NCBI GenBank assembly: GCA_024697185.1
Contig: JAILGB010000004.1
Location: 1-35,910 of the forward strand
Length of the DNA stretch: 35,910 nucleotides
DNA from: Opitutales bacterium
GTDB lineage: Bacteria > Verrucomicrobiota > Verrucomicrobiia > Opitutales > UBA953
Reading direction: 5' to 3'
Shown: piece by piece, positions 1,625-33,863 of the stretch
How the letters are laid out: each line of letters opens with the position of its first letter
Numbering within the stretch: the first letter of the stretch is position 1
Position numbers and translations under genes: made by a program
The notes under the pieces: model-generated
What the model saw: the letters and a program-made list of their open reading frames with translations, nothing else
Databases searched by the model: none
What the model was told of the DNA's origin: nothing

Positions 1625-4600
1625 ATGAAAAAAGCAACGACTCGTTTATCCAAAAATTTTCTTTTTGTTGCCGCGCTGGCATCGTCTGCAATTTGTGCGG
1701 ACGCTGCGACGCCCACAAGCGTTTACAGTGATCCGCTTGTATCGCAACAATGGCAATGGGATCCGAATCGCAATGGTGTCAATATCGCCGACGTTTGGGC
1801 GAGCGGCATTACGGGTCGGAATATTGTTATCGGCATTATTGACCAGTGGGTGGAGCCGTTCCATGAGGATTTGAATGTCTCGACCTACAACACGGCGACG
1901 AGTTGGGCACAAGCGGATCTCAGTCAGGGTTTGAGCTATGACTTTATCAATCCGGGTCAGTCTCCGGGCAGAGATGATGCGCAAATCTACCAAGGGCGCG
2001 AGCACGGAACCGCCTGCGCCGGTTTGGCAGCGGCAGTCGGCGGGAACGGCGTCGGTCTCGTCGGCGCGGCGCCGGGAGCGACCATCGCCGGTTTGAACGC
2101 GAGTTATGAAAACACCCCCGGCATCACTGTTTGGAGCAGGCACTTCCTTTGGGCGTCAGGCATCACGAACTCCTACACTTACAGCGGCGAAGCGCTCATT
2201 GACGTCAAAAGCAACTCCTACGGCTCCACTGCTAACAGTTCATCGGATGGTGAAGCGGACCGCGGCATTACTTTTTCTTCCGCGAACAATGTTATTTATT
2301 GTTTTGCCGCGGGCAATTCCCGTCAGGACCGCGATGAGGTTTCCAACACGGCTTTTTCGAGTTTCCTCAACGATCGTCGCGTGATCACCGTCGCCGCCTG
2401 CGGCGGGAACAGCGCGACCGGCGGCGAGGATATATTTTCCGGATTTTCAAGCTACGGTTCCAACGTCTTTGTCGCTTCGCCGGGAACGCGCGTTGTGGGC
2501 ACGGACCGCACGGGGGTTATCGGTTATGACATGACCTCAAACTATTGCACCTGGGACGGAACGTCTGCGGCGACGCCGATTGTCTCCGGTGTGATGGCGC
2601 TCGGCAAGGAAGTTTTCAAGGACATGGACGTCCGCTGGGCAAAACATGCGATCGCCTGGTCGAGCGGCCACAACGAAAATCCCAACATTAACGCAAACGA
2701 CAGTTCGGGAACGGGATCGTGGCAAAAAAATAACGGCGGCTATTGGTTTAACAACAACTACGGATTCGGCAAAATCGACGCCGTGGGTTTTGTTGACGCC
2801 ACGAGAAACATTCTCTATACGACAACGGAAAAATCGCTTGTCGTCAACAACGGTTTTACTGCGGGAACGCTCAGCAACGAAGGCGTGAAACGCACGATCA
2901 ATTTCACCTTTACCCCGACAAGCGATTTGCTCCAGCGCAATTTGGAGGCGGTTTCCGTCCGGCTCAATTTTTCGCAAGCGGCGTTCCAAACGATGAATTT
3001 CGCGAAATTGAAACTGACACTCACCGCGCCTGACGGCAAGTCCAGTGTGCTTGCCGAGCCCAACGCCACCGATCCCGCACTGAGAGCCAGCATCGACTTT
3101 TACACCTTCCTCACCAATGCGTTTTGGGGCTCCAACTACGACAACTCGGGCGAATGGACATTGCGCGCCGAATACGAGGCGGGCTCTGCCGACCAAAATA
3201 CGACGGGTTGGGTGACGATGAATCAAGTCGAGTTCACGACCGGTTCGTTCGTCTTTGAAAGCGCAGACAATGCAGTTGCCGCGGGAACGACGCTTGAAGC
3301 GCACGCCATCGCCATTGACGGAGCCGAGACCAATTTTGACATCGCGGGAACGGTTTTGCTCGAAGACTCGGTTTTTGTCAACGCGGGAACGCTCACGCTC
3401 GCCCCGACCGGCAGCATCGCCGCCTACACGGAAGGTATCTTGGGCGACAAAGGTGTCAAATACCAGCAAAGCGGCGGCAATGTCAGTTTTGCGGGAACGG
3501 GAAATTTTAAACGCGGTTTCAAACAGACCGGCGGCACTTTCACGCTCTCCGGCACGCTCAACGCGAACGCCGGCATCACGGTTTCCGGGAGCGGCAAATT
3601 TGTCGTCTCCGGAGCGACTGCCACCATCAACAACACCATGACCGTCAGCGGCAGCAACACTTCGCTCACGGTCGAAAACGGCGGGCTTTTGAACTACCGT
3701 TCGGGAACGCTGACGATCAACAGTTCCTCTTCCCTGATCTTCAAAACCGACACCGTCGCCACCTCCAGCATCAATGTTGCCGGCGGATCCATTGTGGTCA
3801 CGGACAATGTCAAACTGATCGTCAATCTCAGCATCAGCACTCTCGACGTCTCCGCTTTTGAAATCGCCGTCATTACCGCCGCCAATTTGGCGAACATCAA
3901 TTTGACGGAAAGCAATGTCACAATCCGCGGAACAGACGGCACTTACAACGGCGCCTTCGAATTTTTCAAGGAAAACGGCGAAGTCAAACTCGGCATCCTC
4001 GGACAAGGCGAGCTCATTGAGACCATTGACGAAAGCAAAGAGATCGGCGAAGGCGGCGCGCGCTACAAATCTACCTTGACGCGCTTTGAAGGCACGCTCA
4101 CGGGCGACGGCATCCTGACCGTCAACCACGACCTCGCCTTTGCCGCAAATGCCAGCGCCTACAGCGGCGAAACCAGAATTTTGGCAAACTGCACCTACAC
4201 AATCGAAGAGACGGCGCAACTGGGAACGGGAACATTCAATATCGCCGAAAAAGGCAAACTGGTCTTTAGCGGCACCCAAACGGTCAGCAACACGATCAGC
4301 GGCGACGGCACTCTGTCCGTGACGGGAACGCTCACCTACTCCGGCGACGCTGGCGCGCTCAACGGGAAGGTGGAAATCTCGGGAACGGGAAATAAGATTA
4401 TCACCGCGAGCGGATCGACCCTGAAAACGCTTTCGCTGAAAAACAACGCGACGGCGGAAATCGGCGGCAGTCTCACCGGGGATTTGAGCGCAAGCGGCGC
4501 AAATGCGGAACTGCTCGCCACCGGCACGCTCGGCGGCAAAATCGATTTGGACAATGCGACGCTCACAACGGCGGGAACGCTGACTTTGGGCGCCGCCAAC

Positions 4601-7261
4601 GAAACGAATTTGCGCAACAATTCGCGAATCGTCGGCGATGTCATTGTCGGCGCGACGGTTCTGACCGTCCGCCGTTCGACAATTGACGGAGATTTGACGG
4701 TCAGCGACGACGCGTCTGTCGTCCATCTCAGCGAAGCGAACATCACGGGCGATTTTACGGCGACGACGGGAACGATCAATATCAGCAACGACAATGTCAT
4801 CGACGGAACGATCACTATCCAGGACAATGTCGTCGTCAACCAAGCCGCCAACGCCACGCTCTCGGGAGGCTCTATGAACGTGGACAATGCGGAATACGAT
4901 GTCGCCGGCGATGTCAATGTCGCCAATCTCATCATCGAAAACAACGCGACGCTCAATCAAGACTCCGGCAATATTCTGAATCTTGTCCTGAGAAACAACG
5001 CAACGGCGATGCTCGCGGGAACGGTCTCCGGCACCATCTCCGTCGATAGCACCTCCACTCTCAACGCGACGGCGGGAACATTTACGGGAACGTCCGTCAC
5101 CAACAACGGTATGCTCCATCTTTACGCGGGAACGCTCCTCAGGAGCATTTCCGGCACGGGAACGACAATCCTCGACGAAGATGTGAGCACCGACGCCGGC
5201 AATATCGGGATGACCTTCCAAAACAACGCAAGCCTCACGCTCACGGGAGGAACGCTCTCCAACACCGTCAACGGAAGCGGCAATATTGTTGTTGACGGAG
5301 CGGTCAGCGGGAACGCCGATTATTTTTGCAATCCCGTGACCAACAACGCGACGCTCACGCTCACTGGCGGCACCGTCACCATGGGTATTGACGGGGACGG
5401 CACAACCGTTATCGACGGCAATGTGACGAGCGACGCCGACCTTTTGGGCACAGTCGTCACCGTCACGGCAGGCAACGCCCTCACCGTCTCCGGCGGAAGC
5501 ATTGACAACGAAATCAACGGCGCGGGAACGACGATCCTCACCGGCAGCGTCAATGTCAACGCAGACCTCCTGAAAACCGCCGTCACCAACAACGGCAATA
5601 TGCTTGTGAATTCGGGGACCTTGAACACTCCCGTCATGGGAACGGGAACGATCACCGTCAGCAACGCCCTCAAAACCGACGCGAGCTATTTGGGCGTTCC
5701 CGTCATCAACAATCAAAGACTGACATTAACCGGCGGCTCTCTCAGCCAATGCATCACGGGAACGGGAACGACATCGATCGAAGGAAATGTCTCTGTCGCC
5801 GTCAACAGTGCGTTCGGCAGCAACAAAATCACGATCAATCACGGTCAACTCAACATCAACTCCGGCGTCAGCGTCAACAACAACGTCACCCTGCTCCTGA
5901 GCAACGACTACCGCCTCGGACTCGCCTCGACACCGATTGCCGCCCTCACCGGCAACGGCAATTTCAGCGGCACCGTTACAATCTCCGCCATCAACTCGAG
6001 ATATGTCACGCGCCTGAGCGACTACACATCACTCTCCTTCCTCTTGGCTGATGCCGGAACTCAAGTCGCCGCAGACCTCAATTCTGTCACATTCAGCATC
6101 GACAGCGCCATTTGGCCGGAATGGTCGGTCGCCGATTATTCCGCCGGAATCCTGACGCTCGCCTACCGTTACGATCCGACGCCCTACACGGCGCCGTCAA
6201 ACCTCAAAGGCTTATACGGGCTCGTCAACGGGACAACGATTTTAGGCTACCAAAAATCAACGTTTAACGCGCGCCTGGTCGCCCTCTCGCCGATCGCTTA
6301 CGGCAGCCTGATCGAAATGCAAAGCGGTTGCGCCGCCATCGTCAATGATTTGCTGCGGGAACGCCTCGAACAACGCCGCTACGAACTCGGCGGGCTGCCG
6401 CAAAACACGACGGGAACCACCTTCTATGCCAATGCGTTCAGCCAAATGCGCGATAGCGACGGTGACGGCAGCAAATCCGCCAACTACGACATCGACCATA
6501 TGGGCATCGTCGCCGGCGTGGATGCGCATCTCGGCAGAGACACGCTCTTCGGATTCGGTGTCGCCGCAGACTTTGCGACAGCACAAACAAAGGACGGTAA
6601 GAAAAACAATGCCGACACCGTCATGATCTCCTTCTCGGGAATGCAGGTTTTTGAAAACACCTACATCGGCTTCGGATTGAGCGCCGGTTCCTCTTCAATC
6701 AAGGCGAGACGCAACTTCGACGCTGAAGATTTTTCGCAAAAAACAAACGGCAACAATGTCAATTTCTCATTGATCGCCGGCGCCGGCTGGGTGCTCAGCG
6801 ATGTCGCCCGAATTGACATTTCACCCTTTGTCGGAATGGATCTGGGCTATGCCCGCGTGAACGGCTTCAACGAAAGCTCCTCCGTTGTCGGTGGCGGCTC
6901 CTCGTCGGTGGCGCTCAATGTGGATTCCTACGAACATTTTTCCTTGCGCGGCAAGGTCGGCACTTCGCTCAATTGGCGGGCGACGCCCAAACTTCGCCTG
7001 GGACTCGAATTTACTTTCGCCCACGAATTTATCAAGCCGGAGCTGGACATTGACGCACGATTCGGACAAAACGCGACGCTCGGATCCCAAAAATTCACAT
7101 CGACGGCTTACCTGATGGACGAAAACAGTTTCCAGGCGGGACCGCGCATCGACTATTCGCTCAACAAAAACTGGTCGCTCTCGGCAGCCTATACCTACGA
7201 AAGCGATTTTAAAGATGTCGCCGGGCATTCCGGCAATGTCGGTGTCCGCTGCCGATTCTGA
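1625..7261 (+). CDS. Subtilisin-like (S8) serine protease autotransporter with P-domain and beta-helical passenger
   Basis: An 1878-residue secreted or surface protein. Residues 1-28 form a signal peptide (basic start, hydrophobic core, cleavage near Ala-Asp-Ala). Residues about 40-390 are a peptidase S8 domain with Asp73 (IGIIDQ), His127 (REHGTACAG), oxyanion Asn231 (FAAGNS) and Ser314 (DGTSAATP). Residues about 400-535 resemble the proprotein-convertase P-domain (SGEWTLRAEYEAG). Residues about 550-1560 are Gly/Thr/Asn-rich repeats of beta-helix type, including six regular 40-residue units. The last ~280 residues are an autotransporter beta-barrel ending in Phe, the usual outer-membrane signature, so the protein should follow the type Va route. 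The passenger holds about 25 GGGAACG words, all on the coding strand and many read as Ala-Gly-Thr. Its substrate is unknown. A terminator follows 24 bp after the stop. Confidence 0.92.
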   Translation: MKKATTRLSKNFLFVAALASSAICADAATPTSVYSDPLVSQQWQWDPNRNGVNIADVWASGITGRNIVIGIIDQWVEPFHEDLNVSTYNTATSWAQADLSQGLSYDFINPGQSPGRDDAQIYQGREHGTACAGLAAAVGGNGVGLVGAAPGATIAGLNASYENTPGITVWSRHFLWASGITNSYTYSGEALIDVKSNSYGSTANSSSDGEADRGITFSSANNVIYCFAAGNSRQDRDEVSNTAFSSFLNDRRVITVAACGGNSATGGEDIFSGFSSYGSNVFVASPGTRVVGTDRTGVIGYDMTSNYCTWDGTSAATPIVSGVMALGKEVFKDMDVRWAKHAIAWSSGHNENPNINANDSSGTGSWQKNNGGYWFNNNYGFGKIDAVGFVDATRNILYTTTEKSLVVNNGFTAGTLSNEGVKRTINFTFTPTSDLLQRNLEAVSVRLNFSQAAFQTMNFAKLKLTLTAPDGKSSVLAEPNATDPALRASIDFYTFLTNAFWGSNYDNSGEWTLRAEYEAGSADQNTTGWVTMNQVEFTTGSFVFESADNAVAAGTTLEAHAIAIDGAETNFDIAGTVLLEDSVFVNAGTLTLAPTGSIAAYTEGILGDKGVKYQQSGGNVSFAGTGNFKRGFKQTGGTFTLSGTLNANAGITVSGSGKFVVSGATATINNTMTVSGSNTSLTVENGGLLNYRSGTLTINSSSSLIFKTDTVATSSINVAGGSIVVTDNVKLIVNLSISTLDVSAFEIAVITAANLANINLTESNVTIRGTDGTYNGAFEFFKENGEVKLGILGQGELIETIDESKEIGEGGARYKSTLTRFEGTLTGDGILTVNHDLAFAANASAYSGETRILANCTYTIEETAQLGTGTFNIAEKGKLVFSGTQTVSNTISGDGTLSVTGTLTYSGDAGALNGKVEISGTGNKIITASGSTLKTLSLKNNATAEIGGSLTGDLSASGANAELLATGTLGGKIDLDNATLTTAGTLTLGAANETNLRNNSRIVGDVIVGATVLTVRRSTIDGDLTVSDDASVVHLSEANITGDFTATTGTINISNDNVIDGTITIQDNVVVNQAANATLSGGSMNVDNAEYDVAGDVNVANLIIENNATLNQDSGNILNLVLRNNATAMLAGTVSGTISVDSTSTLNATAGTFTGTSVTNNGMLHLYAGTLLRSISGTGTTILDEDVSTDAGNIGMTFQNNASLTLTGGTLSNTVNGSGNIVVDGAVSGNADYFCNPVTNNATLTLTGGTVTMGIDGDGTTVIDGNVTSDADLLGTVVTVTAGNALTVSGGSIDNEINGAGTTILTGSVNVNADLLKTAVTNNGNMLVNSGTLNTPVMGTGTITVSNALKTDASYLGVPVINNQRLTLTGGSLSQCITGTGTTSIEGNVSVAVNSAFGSNKITINHGQLNINSGVSVNNNVTLLLSNDYRLGLASTPIAALTGNGNFSGTVTISAINSRYVTRLSDYTSLSFLLADAGTQVAADLNSVTFSIDSAIWPEWSVADYSAGILTLAYRYDPTPYTAPSNLKGLYGLVNGTTILGYQKSTFNARLVALSPIAYGSLIEMQSGCAAIVNDLLRERLEQRRYELGGLPQNTTGTTFYANAFSQMRDSDGDGSKSANYDIDHMGIVAGVDAHLGRDTLFGFGVAADFATAQTKDGKKNNADTVMISFSGMQVFENTYIGFGLSAGSSSIKARRNFDAEDFSQKTNGNNVNFSLIAGAGWVLSDVARIDISPFVGMDLGYARVNGFNESSSVVGGGSSSVALNVDSYEHFSLRGKVGTSLNWRATPKLRLGLEFTFAHEFIKPELDIDARFGQNATLGSQKFTSTAYLMDENSFQAGPRIDYSLNKNWSLSAAYTYESDFKDVAGHSGNVGVRCRF
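5096..5821 (+). repeat. Six in-frame repeats of about 120 bp in the autotransporter passenger
   Basis: Units start at 5096, 5216, 5336, 5456, 5582 and 5702, so the period is 120 bp with one unit of 126 bp. Each encodes about 40 residues on the pattern VTNN-x-LTLTGGT, then GxGTTxIDGxV, then a DADLLG-like segment (residues about 1158-1399). The DNA is much less conserved than the protein pattern, so these are old duplications held by structure, most likely beta-helix rungs. Confidence 0.8.
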
Positions 7262-24864: not shown

Positions 24865-25968
24865 ATGTTACAAGCAGGTATTGTCGGTTTGCCCAATGTC
24901 GGCAAAAGCACCCTTTTTAACGCTTTGACGCGTTCCCGCAAAGCGGAAGCGGCCAATTATCCCTTTTGCACTATTGAGCCCAATGTCGGGATCGTCGAAG
25001 TCCCGGACGACAGGATTGAGCCGTTGCGCAAGATTGCAAAAACCAATGTTACCGTTCCCGCGGCCATCGAATTTGTCGATATCGCAGGCTTGGTCGCCGG
25101 CGCCTCAAAAGGAGAAGGGCTCGGCAACAAATTTTTGGCGAATATCCGCGAAGTTGACGCCATCGTTCATGTCGTGCGCTGCTTTGACAACGACGACATT
25201 ATCCACAACATGGGTTCCGTCGATCCCGTGCGCGACATCGACGTCATCAACACCGAACTCGTTCTCGCAGACCTGCAGTCCTGCGAACAACAACTCGAAC
25301 GCAATGTCAAAAAAGCCCGCGGACAAGACAAGGAAGCCATCGCCAATGTCGCCCTGCTCGAACGCCTGATTCCGCATTTAAACCAAGGGAAAACGGCCGC
25401 CAGCCTTCCGATGAGCGATGACGAACGCGCCCGCATAAAACTTTTTTCACTCCTCTCCGTCAAGCCCGTCCTCTACGCTTGCAACGTTGACGAAACAACC
25501 CTCGCCAATCCCGACGGGAACGCCTATGTGCAGACGGTCAAAAAGTTTGTCGCCGACAATCACGACGCCCGCGTCTGCGTCATCTGCGCCCAAGTCGAAG
25601 CCGAACTCTGCGACCTTTCGCCCGAAGAAGGAAACGAATTTCTCAAAGAACTCGGCGTCAGCGACTCCGGAGTTTCCCAACTCATCCGCCTTTCCTACGA
25701 TCTTCTCGGACTTGCCTCCTATTTTACCGCCGGAGAAAAAGAGGTCAAGGCATGGACTTTCAAAAAAGGAATGACGGCTCCCCAATGCGCCGGCATCATT
25801 CATACGGATTTTGAAAAAGGCTTCATTAAGGCAGATGTCATCTCTTGTGAGGATTTGATAGCAGCCGGCTCCTTTGCCGCAGCCCGCGAAGCCGGCAAAT
25901 ACCGCCTCGAAGGCAAAGACTATCTCTTCCGCGACGGAGATGTCGCTGTCTTCAGATTTAACAACTAA
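24865..25968 (+). CDS. ychF: Redox-regulated ATPase/GTPase YchF (OLA1 family)
   Basis: A 367-residue Obg-family P-loop protein, standard length. G1 is GLPNVGKST at 8-16, followed by [14 protein letters not shown] (switch I), [20 protein letters not shown] (G3), and ACNVDE in the place of NKxD, the change linked to ATP preference in this family. The C-terminal TGS domain is visible ([14 protein letters not shown]-like segment and [20 protein letters not shown] at the end). YchF binds ribosomes and is involved in stress responses. aroQ begins 12 bp downstream. Confidence 0.97.
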
Positions 25969-25980
25969 GCGTTTATGACT

Positions 25981-26412
25981 ATGAAAAAAATCGCCATTCT
26001 CAACGGTCCCAATCTCAACTGGCTCGGCAAACGCGAACCCGAAATCTACGGCTCGACAAGTCTCGAACAGCTCGAAGCCGCACTCGCCCGAGAAGCCGAA
26101 ACGCTCGGTGTCCAAATCGTCTGCGCCCAATCAAACACCGAAGGCGAACTCATCGACACGCTTTACCGCTGGCACAAGGAAGGCGTTGCCGGCGTCATTT
26201 TCAATCCCGGCGCCTACACTCACACCAGCATCGCCTTGCGAGACTGCATCGCGGGAACGGGCATTCCCGTCATCGAGGTTCACATCTCAAACATTCACAA
26301 GCGCGAGGAATTTCGCCACAAATCCCTCACCGCTCCCGTTTGCCTCGGACAAATCTGCGGACTCGGACTCGAAGGCTATTCGCTCGCTCTCAAATATTTT
26401 GCAAAAAACTAA
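25981..26412 (+). CDS. aroQ: Type II 3-dehydroquinate dehydratase
   Basis: A 143-residue shikimate-pathway enzyme that dehydrates 3-dehydroquinate. From the ATG at 25981 the protein starts [20 protein letters not shown]; an ATG two codons earlier (25975) is also possible. Active-site landmarks: Tyr23 in the flexible lid ([11 protein letters not shown]), [14 protein letters not shown], and [14 protein letters not shown] with His101 and Arg112. Length is typical for the dodecameric type II enzymes. The pathway leads to chorismate, the substrate of the TrpE product encoded by the convergent trp operon. The two units share a terminator. Confidence 0.96.
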
Positions 26413-26428
26413 ACGCTAAAAAGCCGAA

Positions 26429-26468
26429 AAAACTCCGTTCCCGCGAATTTAAGAGGGAACGGAGTTTT
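26429..26468. terminator. Bidirectional intrinsic terminator built from two inverted GGGAACG copies
   Basis: AAAACTCCGTTCCC (26429-26442) and GGGAACGGAGTTTT (26455-26468) pair perfectly over 14 bp around a 12-base loop, with T runs on both sides. It sits between the convergent aroQ and trpA genes and should terminate both. Confidence 0.92.
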
Positions 26469-26481
26469 GTTTTACGGTCGC

Positions 26482-27285
26482 TCAAATCCGCGTTCCCGCC
26501 TTCATCTCCGCCGAAAACTTTTGAAGTGCCGTAGCCATCGCGGGAACGTCATTTTTTAAACGCTCGATAATTTTTACAACGGCGGATCCAGAAATCGCCC
26601 CGCTCGTTCCCGCGGCGATGGCGGCGCGGACTTGCGAAGGCTCTGCAATGCCGAATCCCAAAACAGCCGGCGGCGCGCCAAAACTTTTTAAAACATCCAA
26701 AACTTCGCCGACTGGCGTTCCCGCGCGATTTTCCGTTCCCGTGACACCGGCACGCGAGAGCAAATAAGTGTAGGCGTTCCCGTAACGGGCGATTTTTTCA
26801 AGCATCGGCAAATCCGCATTGGGCGGCGCGATAAAAACAAGCGGCAATCCTGTGCGCTTTGAAATTTCCAGATAATCATCGCTCATTTCCACGGGAACGT
26901 CGGCGATCAGCAGCGAATCCGCACCCGCCGCCTTCGCCTCTTCAAAAAATTTCGCGTTCCCGCGGTGATAAATCAAATTGGCGTAAACGAGCAGTCCCAT
27001 CGGCAAATCCGGATGACGGGAACGAATGCGGGCGATGATTTTAAAACAATCGTCAACACGCGTTCCCGCGGCGAGCGCGCGATTGTCCGCCTCTTGAATC
27101 GTCGGTCCGTCCGCCAACGGATCCGAAAACGGGAAGCCGAGTTCCAAGGCGTCCGCACCGCCGGAGATCAAAGCTTCAATCGCGATTTCACTTGACGCGG
27201 GATCGGGATCGCCCAAAACGACAAACGGGATAAACGCGCCCTCGCGACATTGCGAAAGCCGTGAAAACATTTTTTGATAACGCAT
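26482..27285 (-). CDS. trpA: Tryptophan synthase alpha subunit
   Basis: A 267-residue TIM-barrel enzyme that cleaves indole-3-glycerol phosphate to indole and glyceraldehyde 3-phosphate. Catalytic Glu48 (ALELGFPFSD) and Asp59 (PLADGPTIQ) are present, as are the ADVPVE, YTYLLSRAGVTG and GAISGSAVVKIIE segments. From memory, it resembles the enteric TrpA closely in these blocks. It is the last gene of the trp operon, 24 bp after trpB, and is followed by the shared terminator. Ten GGGAACG/CGTTCCC words occur in its 0.8 kb. Confidence 0.97.
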   Translation of the reverse strand: MRYQKMFSRLSQCREGAFIPFVVLGDPDPASSEIAIEALISGGADALELGFPFSDPLADGPTIQEADNRALAAGTRVDDCFKIIARIRSRHPDLPMGLLVYANLIYHRGNAKFFEEAKAAGADSLLIADVPVEMSDDYLEISKRTGLPLVFIAPPNADLPMLEKIARYGNAYTYLLSRAGVTGTENRAGTPVGEVLDVLKSFGAPPAVLGFGIAEPSQVRAAIAAGTSGAISGSAVVKIIERLKNDVPAMATALQKFSAEMKAGTRI

Positions 27286-27309
27286 AAAATTTCCCTTTCA
27301 GATTTTTAT

Positions 27310-28494
27310 CTATTTGATGTGAAGATATTTCATAACATTTTCCAAATCCTTGTCGCCGCGGCCGGAAATATTGACAATTAACGTCTGCTCCTTTTCCGGA
27401 TTTTGACGAATCATTTTTAATGCATACGCAAGCGCGTGCGAGGATTCGAGCGCCGGGATAATCCCCTCGTTTTTGCAAAGCGCCTCAAAAGCTTCGAGCG
27501 CTTCGTCGTCGCGAATATTGACATAGCGCGCTCTGCCGATTTTTGCCAAATGCGCGTGCTGGGGCCCGACGGCGGGAAAATCCAAACCTGCCGAGATCGA
27601 ATAAGACTCCTCGATCTGTCCGTCGTCGTTTTGCATCAGCGGCGCCCGCATTCCGAGATAAATGCCCGTATTGTCGTTCCCGCAAGAAATGGCGGCGCCG
27701 TGTTTTCCTGTCTCGACACCTTTTCCGCCCGGTTCAACGCCGATCAGTTCGACACTCGGCTCGTCGATAAAGTCCGCAAAAATGCCGATCGCATTCGAGC
27801 CTCCGCCCACACAGGCGATGACGGCGTCCGGCAAATGTTTTTCCTTTTGTAAGCATTGCGCCTTGGCTTCGCGGCCGATAACGCGCTGGAACTCGCGAAC
27901 AATCGTCGGGAACGGGTGCGGTCCCGCCGCCGTGCCGAGCAAATAATGCGTCGTCTGATAAGTCGCCGTCCAATCGCGCATCGCCTCGTTGCAAGCGTCT
28001 TTGAGCGTCTGCGAACCCGTCGTCACGGGAACGACTTCCGCACCCAAAAGTTTCATTCTGAAAACATTGGGTTTTTGCCGCTCGCAATCTTTGGCGCCCA
28101 TATAAATGCGGCACTTCAAGCCGAGCAAAGCGCAAACGATCGCCGTCGCGACGCCATGCTGTCCCGCGCCCGTCTCCGCGATAATGCGCGTCTTGCCCAT
28201 CCGTTGCGCGAGCAAGGCCTGTCCGAGCACCTGGTTGGTCTTGTGCGCGCCGCCATGCAAAAGGTCTTCGCGCTTGAGATAAAGTTTTGTGCGCGTTCCC
28301 GCAGTCAAATTGCTCGCCAGAGTCAAAGGCGTCGGACGCCCCGCGTATTCTGTCAGCAAATCGCTAAAACGCTTCATAAAACTCTCATCGTTCATCGCTT
28401 CGACAAACGCAGCTTCGAGTTGTGTTAAAACGGGAACGATAATTTGCGGAACATACATCCCGCCGAATTCCCCGAAAAACGGATTTAATTTCAT
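27310..28494 (-). CDS. trpB: Tryptophan synthase beta subunit
   Basis: A 394-residue PLP enzyme that joins indole and serine to make tryptophan. The PLP lysine is Lys85 in [24 protein letters not shown] (phosphate binding) and [13 protein letters not shown] are intact. It belongs to the TrpB1 type that pairs with TrpA. The N-terminus [13 protein letters not shown] and the C-terminal [11 protein letters not shown] match enteric TrpB in position. A strong AGGAGGA (28502-28508) overlaps the stop codon of trpCF, pointing to translational coupling; the gap between the two genes is 12 bp. Confidence 0.98.
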
Positions 28495-28506
28495 TATTTT
28501 TTCCTC

Positions 28507-29880
28507 CTAAAATTTTCTTAATTGTTCAAATGCCGCCGCGATTTTTTCCGGTGATTTTTTACCGGGGACCGATTCCACGGCAGAGTTAAATTCCACGCCG
28601 AGACAGCCGACACGATGCGCGTCGCGGGCGTTGGACGCGCCGATCCCGCCGGCAAGCATTGACAGCGACTTGAGTTTCTCGGGGATTTTGCTCCAATCAA
28701 AACTTTTTCCGCCACCGCTCCCTCCATCGAGAATATAGCGGTCGTAAAGTCCGGCATCCGTCACGGGAACGCCCGTTAAAGCGTTCCCGTCAAGCGCGCG
28801 CCAAATCTGCGTTCCCACCGGAAGGCGTTCCCGCAGACGATGCGCAAAATCGTCGCTCTCGTTCCCGTGAAGCTGCACGGCAAAAACTTTTAACGTTCCC
28901 GCAACATCCAGGATTTCCGACTCCGGATTGTCCTTAAAAACAGCAACATAATCAAGCGCGGGAACGGCATTTTTGATTTCGAGCGCTTGCGGTAGCGTCA
29001 AAAGTCTCGGTGATTTTTTAGCAAAGATCAATCCGCCGAAAAGCGTTCCCGTAGACAATGCCGCTTGTGCAGATGTCGCATTATCGAGACCGCAAACCTT
29101 ATTTTCGCCAAAAATCAGCCGGCGGCACGCCCTGTCCAGATTTTCCTGCCGCATCAAAGCAGTTCCGACCAAAAAAGCGTCCGCGACTGCCGACAAAGAT
29201 TTTGCGTCGCCATGCGAATGCAGTCCGGACTCTGCGACACAGACGGCGTCTTTTCGCACGTTCCCGGCGAGTTCGCGGCTGCGCTCGATATCCGTTTGCA
29301 ACGTTCTCAAGTTGCGATTGTTAATCCCGACAACACGCGCGCCGAGAGCGTTGGCGCGTTCGATGTCTTCGTGACTGTCCGCCTCCGTGAGAACACCCAT
29401 TCCCAAACGGTGCGCCAAATTTTCAAGCCGCAAATACGTTTCATCATCAAGAACGGAGAGCATCAGCAAAATCGCGTCCGCGCCAAAATGTCGCGCCAGA
29501 TAAACTTGATATTCGTCGATTATAAACTCTTTGCAAAGCACGGGAACGCTTGTGCGGGAACGGACGATCGAGAGATTTTTGTAATCACCCTGAAAAAATT
29601 TTTCATCGCACAAAACCGAAATCACATCCGCATATTTTTTGTAAACATCTGCAATTGCCGCGGGATCGAAATCCGCACGAATCAAACCTTGAGACGGCGA
29701 AGCTTTTTTACACTCGAGAATAAAAGCGGGAACGCCGGCATGTTTGCGATCTTCAAGAACTTTATAAAAATCGCGATCGGCGGGAACGAGCTCTTTTACA
29801 AATTGTTCCAACGGGAACGCCTTGCGCCGCGCCGCTATTTCGAGGCGTTTTTGAGCTACGATTTCTGAAAGAATATTCAT
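28507..29880 (-). CDS. trpCF: Fused indole-3-glycerol phosphate synthase / phosphoribosylanthranilate isomerase
   Basis: About 457 residues forming two TIM barrels in one chain, as in E. coli TrpC. The N-terminal part is indole-glycerol phosphate synthase (FILECKKASPSQGLIR, VLCKEFIIDEYQ, VGINNRNL, AESGL). From about residue 262 (KVCGLDNATSAQAA, with the catalytic Cys) it is phosphoribosylanthranilate isomerase, with VAVFKDN, FAVQLHGNE and ILDGGSGGGKSFDW. The frame is open to an ATG at 29904, but the one at 29880 matches the family start and avoids overlap with trpGD, leaving a 10-bp gap. Fourteen GGGAACG/CGTTCCC words in 1.4 kb make it one of the densest genes. Confidence 0.95.
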   Translation of the reverse strand: MNILSEIVAQKRLEIAARRKAFPLEQFVKELVPADRDFYKVLEDRKHAGVPAFILECKKASPSQGLIRADFDPAAIADVYKKYADVISVLCDEKFFQGDYKNLSIVRSRTSVPVLCKEFIIDEYQVYLARHFGADAILLMLSVLDDETYLRLENLAHRLGMGVLTEADSHEDIERANALGARVVGINNRNLRTLQTDIERSRELAGNVRKDAVCVAESGLHSHGDAKSLSAVADAFLVGTALMRQENLDRACRRLIFGENKVCGLDNATSAQAALSTGTLFGGLIFAKKSPRLLTLPQALEIKNAVPALDYVAVFKDNPESEILDVAGTLKVFAVQLHGNESDDFAHRLRERLPVGTQIWRALDGNALTGVPVTDAGLYDRYILDGGSGGGKSFDWSKIPEKLKSLSMLAGGIGASNARDAHRVGCLGVEFNSAVESVPGKKSPEKIAAAFEQLRKF

Positions 29881-29890
29881 AAAAAATCGA

Positions 29891-31489
29891 TTAGTTGTTA
29901 ACAATCATTTTTTGAACAAAATCCCACGCGTTCCCGCTAAGAATATGCTCCCTGACGCGAGCGACACCCTCTGCGAGCGTTCCCGCCGTGCCGTTAAGAT
30001 AAAGGAGCGCGCCTGTGTTCAAGGCGATTACCGCATTTTGGGCATCACTGCCCTTCCCTTTCAAAATCTTCTCCGAGATCACGCGGTTTTCCTCCGGATT
30101 GCCGCCCAAGACAGTTTCGAGTGCGAATGTTTTCAGCCCGAAATCTTCCGGCTGAAACGCATAATCGCGGATTTCTCCATTTTCCAAAAGCTCCGCGACT
30201 TGAGTTTCCCCGTGAATAGCCATTTCATCGAGCCCTGCGCCATAAACAACCATCGCTCGACGATAACCCAATCTTTTGAGAGACTCCGCGATCGGCATCA
30301 GCAGAGACGGCGCATAGACGCCGACCAATGCGAATGTCGGGTGCGCAGGATTGATTAACGGCCCCAAAACATTGAAAATTGTCCGCGTTTTCAAACTTTG
30401 ACGCACCGGCATCGCAAAACGCATTCCGCTATGATAAAGCGGCGCGCGCATAAAACAAAAATTGTGCCGGTCGAGTGATTCGCGGGCAGCCTCCGGAGAA
30501 AGGTCTGTAGCGATCCCGAGAGCCTTTAACAAATCCGAAGAGCCCGTCTTTGAAGAAACGCTGCGATTGCCGTGCTTGGCGATTTTGACGCCCATCGACG
30601 CCGCGAGCAATGCGGATGTTGAGGAAATGTTGATTGTGCCGACACCATCGCCGCCCGTTCCTACAATCTCGCCGAACGGATAATCCGGACGCGGGAATTT
30701 TTTCGCGTGCAAAAGCAATGCGTCCGCCGCTCCCGAAATTTCCTCCGGAGTCTCGCCTTTCATTTTTAACGCCACCAAGGCTCCCGCCAACGATGTCGCA
30801 TCGACATTCCCGCTGATGATTTCATTGAAAAGCTCTGAACTTTGTTCCTTGCTCAAATTTTCACCTTTGTAGAGACGATTTAAAATTTCAAGCGTGTTCC
30901 CGCGACGCTCTTCGCGTGTTATAAACTTGAGAGATTTGCGCAAGAGTTCGGAGCCTCTCGGCGACATGATCGACTCGGGATGAAATTGGAATCCCAAAAC
31001 ACGATCGGCGCGATTCATTACCGCCATCGGCACATCATGATAATGCGCGATGACCTCAAGAGAATTGGGCAGCTTTGCCCCGACTAAAGAATGATAGCGC
31101 GCAAACGGCAGCGGGGACGGCATTTCCGAAAACGGCCCTTCGCCCGAATGCTCAATCAAAGAACTTTTGCCGTGCATAATCTCCGCCGCGGGAACGACAG
31201 AGCCGCCATAATATTGACAAATCGCCTGATGGCCGAGGCAAATGCCGAGTATTGGATATTTGCGATGACAAAGCGCGACCAGACGCAAAAGGCAACCGGC
31301 TTCATCCGGCATGCCCGGCCCCGGCGAAATAACCAAAACAGGATTTTTTGCCGCTTGCATTTTTTCGAAAATATATTCCGCGGGAACGCTGTTCCGATAA
31401 ACAAAAACATTCGTATTCTCGTAAGAACGGAACTCGTCGACGAGATTGTAAACGAAGGAATCAAAATTATCTAAAAGAAAAATATCCAT
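29891..31489 (-). CDS. trpGD: Fused anthranilate synthase glutaminase / anthranilate phosphoribosyltransferase
   Basis: A 532-residue fusion. Residues 1-190 are a class I glutamine amidotransferase (LLDNFDSFVYNL, SPGPGMPDEAG, catalytic Cys84 in GICLGHQAI, His170 and Glu172 in FHPES). Residues about 200-532 are anthranilate phosphoribosyltransferase (GTGGDG at 277-282, AKHGNRSVSSKTGSSDLL, RTIFNVLGPLINPAHP). This is the arrangement of TrpD in E. coli and relatives, and the domain joint (LKFITREERRGNTLEILNRL) lies in the same place. It starts 43 bp after the trpE stop. Confidence 0.96.
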   Translation of the reverse strand: MDIFLLDNFDSFVYNLVDEFRSYENTNVFVYRNSVPAEYIFEKMQAAKNPVLVISPGPGMPDEAGCLLRLVALCHRKYPILGICLGHQAICQYYGGSVVPAAEIMHGKSSLIEHSGEGPFSEMPSPLPFARYHSLVGAKLPNSLEVIAHYHDVPMAVMNRADRVLGFQFHPESIMSPRGSELLRKSLKFITREERRGNTLEILNRLYKGENLSKEQSSELFNEIISGNVDATSLAGALVALKMKGETPEEISGAADALLLHAKKFPRPDYPFGEIVGTGGDGVGTINISSTSALLAASMGVKIAKHGNRSVSSKTGSSDLLKALGIATDLSPEAARESLDRHNFCFMRAPLYHSGMRFAMPVRQSLKTRTIFNVLGPLINPAHPTFALVGVYAPSLLMPIAESLKRLGYRRAMVVYGAGLDEMAIHGETQVAELLENGEIRDYAFQPEDFGLKTFALETVLGGNPEENRVISEKILKGKGSDAQNAVIALNTGALLYLNGTAGTLAEGVARVREHILSGNAWDFVQKMIVNN

Positions 31490-31532
31490 AGCTTTTAAGT
31501 GTTAAAATTGCTTTTTCTGTTTTTTTTGAATT

Positions 31533-33098
31533 TTATAAATCTTTGAAAACGATGCGTTTGCCTTGGGATTGCGCGATAGCTGCGATAGGCGCCATAGCCT
31601 TGTTGCGAGATTCGTCCGCTTCGTTTTGCGGGATCGAGTCAAGAACGACGCCGCCGCCCGCCTGCACTGTCGCGATACCGTCTTTTACAAACGCTGAGCG
31701 GATCAGAATACAGGTGTCCATGTCGCCGTTCCCGTTAAAATACCCCACAGCCCCGCCATAACTCCCGCGACGACAGCCTTCGACTTTTCGCAAAAGCTCT
31801 GTCGCGCGAATTTTGGGCGCTCCCGTGAGCGTTCCCATATTCATACAGGCCTGATAAGCGTGAAGCGCGTCAAGATCCGAGCGCAGTTTTGCCACGACAT
31901 GCGAAACCAAATGCATCACATGACTATAGCGGTCAACCTTCAAAAGTTCTTGCGTGCAACGGGTTCTCGGCTCTGCAATTCGCGCAAGGTCATTGCGCGC
32001 CAAATCCACCAGCATCAAATGCTCCGACAGCTCTTTGTTGTCCATTCGCAATTCAAACTCAACACGGGAATCCAAGTCCGGATTAACGTTGCCGTCCGCA
32101 TCAAAACCACGACGACGCGTTCCCGCAATCGGATAAAGTTCAACCAAACGAGACGACGCCGTAAATTTAACAGAAATTTCCGGAGACGCCCCAAAAACGA
32201 TAAATTCCGCATCATCGACAAAAAACATATAGGGGCTCGGGTTGCTTTTGCGCAAAACGCAATAAGCGCGCTCAGGATCCGGACACGGCAAATTGAACGA
32301 ACGGGAGGGAACAACCTGAAAAATATCACCGCGATGAATAAATGTTTTCAAATATTCAACTTCACCGCAATAAACCTTGTCGCTCTTGTTCGTCGTTACC
32401 GTGACCGCATTAAAATCTTTTTCGGGAACGACCTGGCTATTCAAAAATTTTCTTTCACAAAACGCAGCCAATTCACGGGAACGATTTTCAAGCCGGGAAC
32501 GTTCCGCCAAATCCTCGCTTAAAAGCAAAGACGAAATATGTGTCGTTTGCGCAATATGGCTGATCGTCAAAAAATTTTCAGCCAAATAAAACAAAAAATC
32601 AGGACATGTGTTCGTTCCTGTCTCGACAGCGGGGAGTTTTTCAAAAACCTCAATCAAATCATACGCAAAAATCCCGGCGAGCAAAATGCGCTCCGGATCG
32701 GCGAATTCCAACGCGGCCTCGCGAACAGCGCGCAAAACATCCATAGGAGAACTTGCAAGCAAACGGCTTTCCTCATCAAGATTTTCAGGAATCGGCGGGA
32801 ACGAAAAAATCAAAGACTTCCCCTTTTGCTCTTTTGCAATTTCAGGAAGGACTTCGCAAATTTTCGAAAGCAAACATTCACCGTTCGGCGTCAGCGCATT
32901 CACAGTAACCGAACGGCCGCGACAGACAATCCTCAATGCCGCATCCGACAAAATCAAAGACTGCGTTCCCGCATGTGTCGTAAGATCTGCGGACTCCAAC
33001 AAAAGCGTGTTGCCGTTGCGACCGTTTTTTATCGCCCCATACAAATTCATCGGGTCATTTACATAAGGCGCATCGATTATTGAGATTTGTTTTTTCAT
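31533..33098 (-). CDS. trpE: Anthranilate synthase component I
   Basis: A 521-residue chorismate-utilising enzyme that makes anthranilate with the TrpG domain. The N-terminal LLLESADL (residues 32-39, with Ser36) is the tryptophan feedback site motif. The catalytic half contains FQVVPSRSFNLPCPDPERAY, KSNPSPYMFF, YPIAGTRRRG, EHLMLVDLARNDLARI, MGTLTGAPK and GSYGGAVGYF. Several N-terminal blocks that are usually variable (SLILSDAALRI, PNGECLL, CPDFLFYLAE) match enteric TrpE as I recall it, so it is of enteric type and not the more usual short bacterial form. It is first in the operon after the attenuator. Confidence 0.97.
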   Translation of the reverse strand: MKKQISIIDAPYVNDPMNLYGAIKNGRNGNTLLLESADLTTHAGTQSLILSDAALRIVCRGRSVTVNALTPNGECLLSKICEVLPEIAKEQKGKSLIFSFPPIPENLDEESRLLASSPMDVLRAVREAALEFADPERILLAGIFAYDLIEVFEKLPAVETGTNTCPDFLFYLAENFLTISHIAQTTHISSLLLSEDLAERSRLENRSRELAAFCERKFLNSQVVPEKDFNAVTVTTNKSDKVYCGEVEYLKTFIHRGDIFQVVPSRSFNLPCPDPERAYCVLRKSNPSPYMFFVDDAEFIVFGASPEISVKFTASSRLVELYPIAGTRRRGFDADGNVNPDLDSRVEFELRMDNKELSEHLMLVDLARNDLARIAEPRTRCTQELLKVDRYSHVMHLVSHVVAKLRSDLDALHAYQACMNMGTLTGAPKIRATELLRKVEGCRRGSYGGAVGYFNGNGDMDTCILIRSAFVKDGIATVQAGGGVVLDSIPQNEADESRNKAMAPIAAIAQSQGKRIVFKDL

Positions 33099-33129
33099 AA
33101 TTTCGTATTTGTTAATTTTTTATAAAAGC

Positions 33130-33225
33130 AAAAAATCCACAGATTTTAAATCTGCGGATTTCATTCAAAAAAGTTTGTAATATCACCTAATTACGCAACA
33201 AATAGTCCGCAGATCTTCTGCAGAC
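33130..33225 (-). promoter_or_regulatory. trp attenuator: alternative hairpins ending in a terminator
   Basis: Read on the minus strand, region 1 GTCTGCAG (33225-33218) pairs with region 2 CTGCGGAC (33212-33205). Region 2 can instead pair through ATCTGCGGA (33214-33206) with TCCGCAGAT of region 3 (33158-33150), nine Watson-Crick pairs plus two weaker ones. Region 3 also pairs with region 4: AAATCCGCAGATTT (33161-33148) with AAATCTGTGGATTT (33146-33133), followed by six T, a terminator. The two Trp codons of the leader (33232-33227) lie just before region 1, so a ribosome stalled there frees region 2 to pair with region 3 and prevents termination. This is the classical attenuation geometry. 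Confidence 0.9.
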
Positions 33226-33259
33226 GCCACCAAGCGAAGCTATTGTTGCTGTAAATCAT
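33191..33259 (-). CDS. trpL: trp operon leader peptide
   Basis: A 22-codon open frame, ATG at 33259 and TAA at 33193-33191, 92 bp ahead of trpE. Codons 10 and 11 are tandem TGG (Trp-Trp) followed by Arg, as in E. coli TrpL (GWWR; here AWWR). The frame overlaps regions 1 and 2 of the attenuator, and its stop lies just past region 2, so a ribosome that reaches the stop covers region 2 and allows the terminator. No Shine-Dalgarno site is visible. It is too short for ordinary gene finders. Confidence 0.9.
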   Translation of the reverse strand: MIYSNNSFAWWRLQKICGLFVA

Positions 33260-33267
33260 TAAAAATA

Positions 33268-33296
33268 AGTAAAACTATTTTTTTTATAACTGTCAA
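33268..33296 (-). promoter_or_regulatory. Probable trp operon promoter
   Basis: A perfect -35 TTGACA (33296-33291), a 17-bp spacer and a -10-like TTTACT (33273-33268) are read on the minus strand. Transcription would start near 33261, only a couple of bases before the trpL ATG. No obvious TrpR operator palindrome (CTAG-centred, as in E. coli) is seen. The remaining 120 bp up to the next gene are AT-rich and show nothing else. Confidence 0.55.
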
Positions 33297-33416
33297 TAAT
33301 TTTTAATTGATTCGTTTATATTCATCCCTCGAAAAATTGTTTCAACCGCTACAAACTCCGATAATGTTTAAATATTATTAGGAAAAAACAAGATTTCAAA
33401 TCTAAGGCATTAAAAT

Positions 33417-33863
33417 CTACTTTAACATTTTTTGCAGATAGGCCGCTTTCATTTTTTGCAATTCTTCTTCATATGCTGCTCTTCTTAGTTGTGCCCATTT
33501 CTGTATGTCAGGCTTTGCAATAATAATCCAATATCGTTCATCACCATATCTATATAATGAAACCTGCTTGTAATAAAGGTCGTTATTTATATCAAATATC
33601 TGGGAAAGAGCTTCTTCATCGCGTTTGATTATATGCCCGCGAGCCCACCTATCCCATCTCGCTCTATCATCATCAGAAGCATGATAATACGGCTCACCAG
33701 ATAAATCGCCAACAAAATTGAAGAAAATAGAAGAAACAAGCATTGGAGGAAAAAACCATTTCAGAAAACTCAAGAAAAAACCTATTAAACTAAAATTCAA
33801 ACTTATAGGTTTTGACCACCAGACCAAAAAATTTATTAATTTTTCTTTAATGTTCATAAACAT
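33417..33863 (-). CDS. Hypothetical membrane protein
   Basis: A 148-residue protein with a hydrophobic segment at about residues 20-50 (SLIGFFLSFLKWFFPPMLVS) and a charged C-terminal half rich in Tyr, Trp, Arg and Lys (DRARWDRWARGHIIKRDEEA), ending in a helical KMKAAYLQKMLK. I recognise no family. It begins 6 bp after the stop of the FGE-domain gene and is probably the last gene of a three-gene unit. It is AT-rich and free of the GGGAACG word. Confidence 0.6.
   Translation of the reverse strand: MFMNIKEKLINFLVWWSKPISLNFSLIGFFLSFLKWFFPPMLVSSIFFNFVGDLSGEPYYHASDDDRARWDRWARGHIIKRDEEALSQIFDINNDLYYKQVSLYRYGDERYWIIIAKPDIQKWAQLRRAAYEEELQKMKAAYLQKMLK

Follow-up and report, generated by a model that had tools for sequence, protein, structure and literature searches.

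The window analysed here is a 35,910-nt contig from an Opitutia genome (G000), and it carries a complete trpE-GD-CF-B-A operon on a single strand. All of the genes are read from the minus strand. The first is trpE, which encodes anthranilate synthase component I of the gammaproteobacterial type (31533–33098; TIGR00565 and NF010079 above cut-off, and placement in a tree). It is followed by a trpGD fusion (29891–31489; PF00117 plus PF00591, the best match being NF007073, below its cut-off), a trpCF fusion (28507–29904; NF006945 above cut-off), trpB (27310–28494; TIGR00263 and a tree) and trpA (26482–27285; TIGR00262). Elsewhere, the window encodes an autotransporter of 1878 residues (1625–7261, plus strand) that has a P-domain and, at its N-terminus, a subtilase domain.

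Inspection of the sequence ahead of trpE, together with RNA folding, revealed a trp leader control region at 33130–33259 of the minus strand, with a spacing of 31 nt between the leader and trpE, which starts at 33098. All features of the leader given below lie on this strand. A 22-codon leader peptide ORF (MIYSNNSFAWWRLQKICGLFVA; 33191–33259) runs from an ATG at 33259–33257 to a TAA stop codon at 33193–33191, and its predicted product reads M I Y S N N S F A W W R L Q K I C G L F V A. Codons 10 and 11 are tandem Trp codons, TGG TGG (33227–33232), and region 1 (GTCTGCAGA; 33217–33225), the 5′ arm of the 1:2 hairpin, begins one base past the second of them. Region 2 as a whole spans 33205–33216. 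Its segment TCTGCGGAC (33205–33213) forms the 3′ arm of the 1:2 hairpin, which has nine pairs and an AGA loop, and the extended region 2, AGATCTGCGGA (33206–33216), is the 5′ arm of the 2:3 antiterminator, in which it forms 11 pairs with TCCGCAGATTT of region 3 (33148–33158; duplex −17.6 kcal/mol). Region 3 (GAAATCCGCAGATT; 33149–33162) is common to the antiterminator and the terminator. With region 4 (AATCTGTGGATTTT; 33132–33145) it forms the 3:4 terminator of 14 pairs and three loop bases (−16.1 kcal/mol), and a run of six T residues at 33130–33135 was also picked up by a terminator scan; the first four of these also close the 3:4 stem.

A first-pass annotation had described a 22-codon leader with tandem Trp codons directly before region 1, a 1:2 hairpin, an antiterminator of at least nine pairs and a terminator with six T as four parts that fit together, without assigning a strand. 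All four parts were confirmed on the minus strand, with the T run reading from 33135 to 33130. Its description of the locus as a full ribosome-mediated trp attenuator agrees with this anatomy, which supports the interpretation at the level of sequence; the features by which such an attenuator is recognized, namely a Trp-containing ORF at region 1, mutually exclusive pairings and a terminator, are all present.

Two other species of the genus, G002 (loci L144 and L004) and G006 (loci L033 and L145), have counterparts of the leader. ORFs for leader peptides precede trpE in both genomes (MNRVQSNIAFWWRPCDSSGRRLGAQKKRQP in G002 and MFATNAQFFGNWRRRSTTGRRAVPVAF in G006), as do terminators, CCGCAGA/TCTGCGG followed by seven T residues in G002 and AAACCTGC/GCAGGTTTTTTT in G006. 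The leader parts are common to all three species and the sequences are very different: the few shared bases are TGGCGTC, which is the last Trp codon plus the start of region 1. The Trp codons of G002 are placed at region 1 as in the window, and G006 has this placement with a single Trp codon. Region 2 lies 12–31 nt downstream of the Trp codon across the three species, and in each of them the piece that forms the 3′ arm of the first hairpin is also able to base-pair with the terminator's 5′ arm. We also folded the leaders with 13 nt hidden, counted from the A-site Trp codon, and no other constraint. With region 1 masked in this way and the RNA cut off after region 3, the window, G002 and G006 all had a minimum-energy fold in which region 2 pairs with region 3; when region 1 was free, the 1:2 hairpin formed in all three species, and with region 4 present the 3:4 pairing formed. 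The first pass had named the absence of the alternative pairings from close relatives as evidence that would count against an attenuator, and we found that G002 and G006 both retain the Trp leader and the 1:2, 2:3 and 3:4 pairings. The leaders of these two species are weaker than that of the window. The G002 antiterminator contains two mismatches and has an energy that is ordinary for a GC-rich region (20% of shuffles), and G006 fails the six-pair threshold of a fold-based switch test. The terminator region of G006 (L145 5543–5611, minus strand) also gave a sub-threshold match to Rfam STnc370, an enterobacterial sRNA (35 bits; cut-off 54), which is probably just the hairpin.

A TTGACA sequence at 33291–33296 (minus strand) is the likely −35 box of the operon promoter. 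A TTGAC[AG] motif is found 37 nt upstream of the leader ATG in the window, 53 nt upstream in G002 (TTGACA) and 50 nt upstream in G006 (TTGACG). A 17-nt spacer from the TTGACA of the window would place the −10 box at TTTACT (33268–33273), which is weak and was not picked up by a scan. If TTGACA is the −35 box, transcription would start within about three bases of the leader ATG at the usual spacing. Thus, the leader peptide of the window may be read from a near-leaderless mRNA. No clear Shine–Dalgarno sequence was found ahead of the leader ATG in the window, G002 or G006.

Phylogenetic trees bear on the origin of the operon. In the TrpE tree, the window, G002 and G006 form one clade (support 100) that lies inside a clade of Aeromonas, Zobellella and Succinivibrionaceae (support 99). 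TrpB falls beside Succinivibrionaceae (support 88), and TrpCF is nested among gammaproteobacterial TrpCF proteins with no finer resolution. The best TrpE relatives outside the genus are gammaproteobacterial (Aeromonas and others, 51–59% identity), and native TrpE proteins of the same Opitutia family are 40–51% identical to the window TrpE over part of its length. The GD and CF fusions, the proteobacterial-type TrpE and the placement of the proteins inside the gammaproteobacteria are the features expected of a gammaproteobacterial whole-pathway operon.

Occurrence of the operon is patchy. Window-type TrpE and TrpB were found in three of eight genus members, G000, G002 and G006, with identities to the window of 67% (G002) and 62% (G006) for TrpE and of 83% (G002) and 80% (G006) for TrpB; the operon is complete in G002 as well. 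Three of 373 genomes of the order have window-type TrpE, all within the genus, and none of the 370 others does. In a phylum-wide sample of 388 genomes drawn without G002 and G006, only the window genome had it, and window-type TrpCF was found in one of 384 genomes of the class, again that of the window. The three carriers are scattered across the genus on the YchF tree, a pattern compatible with a single acquisition and later losses, or else with movement between members of the genus. The flanks of the operon differ between carriers: aroQ and ychF adjoin it in the window (24865–33863), and the G006 operon (L145 3893–5760) is divergent from a bioB-like gene. The TrpE and TrpB trees show that trpE and trpB are foreign, from gammaproteobacteria near Aeromonadales and Succinivibrionaceae, and with the patchy occurrence they support transfer of the operon.

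A second TrpB, 44–47% identical, is encoded in six of the eight genus members (L116–L121: G002:C6, G003:C10, G004:C20, G005:C14, G001:C22 and G006:C5) and is absent from G000 and G007. Genus members that lack the transferred operon had no good TrpE match either; possibly these are auxotrophic for tryptophan, with TrpB retained alone.

We searched gammaproteobacterial loci for TGGTGGC[AG] with a terminator downstream of it, ahead of trpE. This strict pattern was present at 54 of 79 loci, examples being the leaders of Aeromonas (MQTTSILTIWWWHTP), Ruminobacter (MFFSKLFNAFSWWHTR) and the uncultured proteobacterium RUG520 (MLTNSALIFWWWRTCM). Because these 54 relatives have a like leader in the same place, arrival of the leader together with the operon is the simplest history and the most likely one. 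The proposal of the first-pass annotation that the operon was transferred with its control region is thus upheld for the operon by the trees and patchy occurrence; for the control region it is the simplest reading, and the leader sequence itself is no proof.

Common descent with the gammaproteobacterial trpL is suggested by position and layout rather than by sequence. The Rfam model RF00513 (Trp_leader; gathering threshold 41 bits) matches the Vibrio and Ruminobacter leaders and, even with E values up to 5–10 allowed, missed those of the window, G002 and G006. A covariance model that we built from 21 gammaproteobacterial leaders placed the leader of the window at the top of its hits in 76 kb, with 23.6 bits and an E value of 1.7e-4. 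A plain terminator that follows a ribosomal protein L16-like gene upstream of hisG scored 24.9 bits with the same model, so the score of the window comes mostly from its terminator, and we dropped the covariance score as proof of descent. A sequence profile without the Trp codons and terminator gave no match. Upstream of 25 native trpE genes of the Opitutia family (at least 350 nt each), we found no WW or clustered-Trp leader. W-rich ORFs seen ahead of native trpE were rejected as Trp leaders; those ending in LWGRW are the end of the upstream gene. The gene that closely precedes native trpE in many family relatives is conserved and SAM-dependent-methyltransferase-like, and its product has LPLSLWGRW as its C-terminus. 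Ahead of hisG there was no convincing His-rich leader.

These results bear on the possibility that the operon came with some other control and that a working attenuator then arose anew in Opitutia, its likeness to trpL being convergence. Homology was undetectable beyond the Trp codons, CG(T) and the terminator, and the Opitutia leader ORFs have 22–30 codons and run past region 2, compared with 15–16 codons in Aeromonadales, as convergence would have it. We nevertheless consider this history improbable, given that leaders of this kind occupy this position in close gammaproteobacterial relatives, that all three Opitutia species have it in common, and that the 25 native trpE genes have no such leader, so that the lineage offers no switch to copy.

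It is considerably less probable still that the hairpins are mere terminators guarding against read-through from the upstream gene at 33417–33863 and that the WW pair is there by chance. That gene does have the same reading direction as the operon, and both hairpins look terminator-like in a simple scan, but neither the 2:3 pairing nor the placing of WW is expected by chance. In our main test, the 300 nt ahead of trpE were subjected to 3000 dinucleotide shuffles. A terminator appeared in 761 of the 3000, the full set of 1:2, 2:3 and 3:4 pairings in one, and the full set plus a WW (or single-W) leader in none; a short ORF with WW anywhere appeared in 757 of 100,000 shuffles (0.8%). With only the upstream part shuffled, 0.1% of sequences matched the 2:3 duplex of the window; with both parts shuffled, none of 3000 did. 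Folding of the whole window leader gave z = −4.3. A laxer test, which asks whether the minimum-energy fold changes once region 1 is hidden, is only mildly selective, being passed by 146 of 2000 shuffles (7%) for the window and by 2% for G002. Since 7% of shuffles reach the fold switch, the switch by itself is unconvincing; it is the conjunction of parts that convinces. Moreover, the same set of parts occurs in the two other species, and the gene upstream of the G006 operon is the divergent, bioB-like one. Gammaproteobacterial contamination of the assembly, to which the type of trpE and trpB might point, can hardly be credited, as ychF on the same 35.9-kb contig is 83–86% identical to that of all seven other genus members, diverged copies (62–67% TrpE) in two other MAGs form one clade with the window, and the G006 copy (JAJPZB010000167) was deposited as Opitutia.

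Thus, the locus very probably carries a ribosome-mediated trp attenuator that was brought into this Opitutia genus with its operon from an Aeromonadales-like gammaproteobacterium. The predicted course of leader translation, termination and response to tryptophan is as follows. With ample charged tRNA-Trp, the leading ribosome would pass both Trp codons and regions 1 and 2 and reach the stop codon. The 1:2 hairpin would re-form behind the passing ribosome, or region 2 would be partly covered by the ribosome at the stop; region 3 would then pair with region 4, and RNA polymerase would halt ahead of trpE. With charged tRNA-Trp in short supply, the ribosome would stall on TGG TGG and cover region 1. 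This would leave region 2 available for pairing with region 3, so that the terminator would not form and trpE-GD-CF-B-A would be transcribed. Because the leader ORF runs through region 2, termination in tryptophan excess would probably come about by refolding of 1:2 behind the ribosome. Region 2 is separated from the leader stop codon by about 11 nt in the window, 26 nt in G002 and 20 nt in G006; in the latter two, where the stop lies about 20–26 nt past region 2, a ribosome at the stop is therefore unlikely to mask that region.

The layout resembles the trpL of E. coli and other gammaproteobacteria in its tandem Trp codons at region 1, its exclusive 1:2, 2:3 and 3:4 pairings, its terminator ahead of trpE and the gene order trpE-GD-CF-B-A. 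As in Succinivibrionaceae, the GCGG core of region 2 lies about 19 nt past the start of the last Trp codon. The E. coli leader ORF stops right behind region 1, whereas those of Opitutia extend through region 2 and stop beyond it, and the Opitutia leaders differ from the trpL family in giving no RF00513 match. Also unlike the E. coli system, the mRNA is possibly near-leaderless and no TrpR was found in the genome, nor in any of the eight genus members; no T-box was found in the window. The attenuator may be the sole specific control of the operon. We more tentatively suggest, while thinking it on balance doubtful, that this is a transferred regulatory RNA whose logic was kept and which was rebuilt in its new host, with a near-leaderless mRNA, no TrpR, and 1:2 refolding in place of masking at the stop codon. 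The Opitutia family's own trpE genes serve the same enzyme step and belong to another TrpE lineage, at most about 50% identical over the conserved part, with no Trp-rich leader found upstream.

Outside the Proteobacteria, classical trp attenuators with double or triple UGG are known from Corynebacterium and Streptomyces (PMC1262725). The Opitutia leaders are of the same class, in another phylum and with other sequences. The Corynebacterium trp operon is likewise said to have been transferred. A survey of 255 genomes concluded that amino acid attenuators possibly originated in gammaproteobacteria, with very few transfers (PMC3766115); an attenuator survey of 2010 (Lopatovskaya et al.) is cited in PMC4833913. 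We found no report of leader-peptide attenuation of trp in Verrucomicrobiota in the open-access literature, a scope that takes in few subscription papers, in accordance with the first-pass remark that no verrucomicrobial example has been described. The mechanism is a textbook one; what is new, within the open-access literature searched, is its verrucomicrobial occurrence.

Our findings place what is very probably classical ribosome-mediated attenuation in Verrucomicrobiota by way of a traceable transfer, with one donor group, one recipient genus and three surviving copies, in which the alternative pairings have outlasted the sequence. An attenuator can move with its operon because it needs just a ribosome, a polymerase and tRNA-Trp, whereas a repressor-controlled operon would lose its control on such a transfer.
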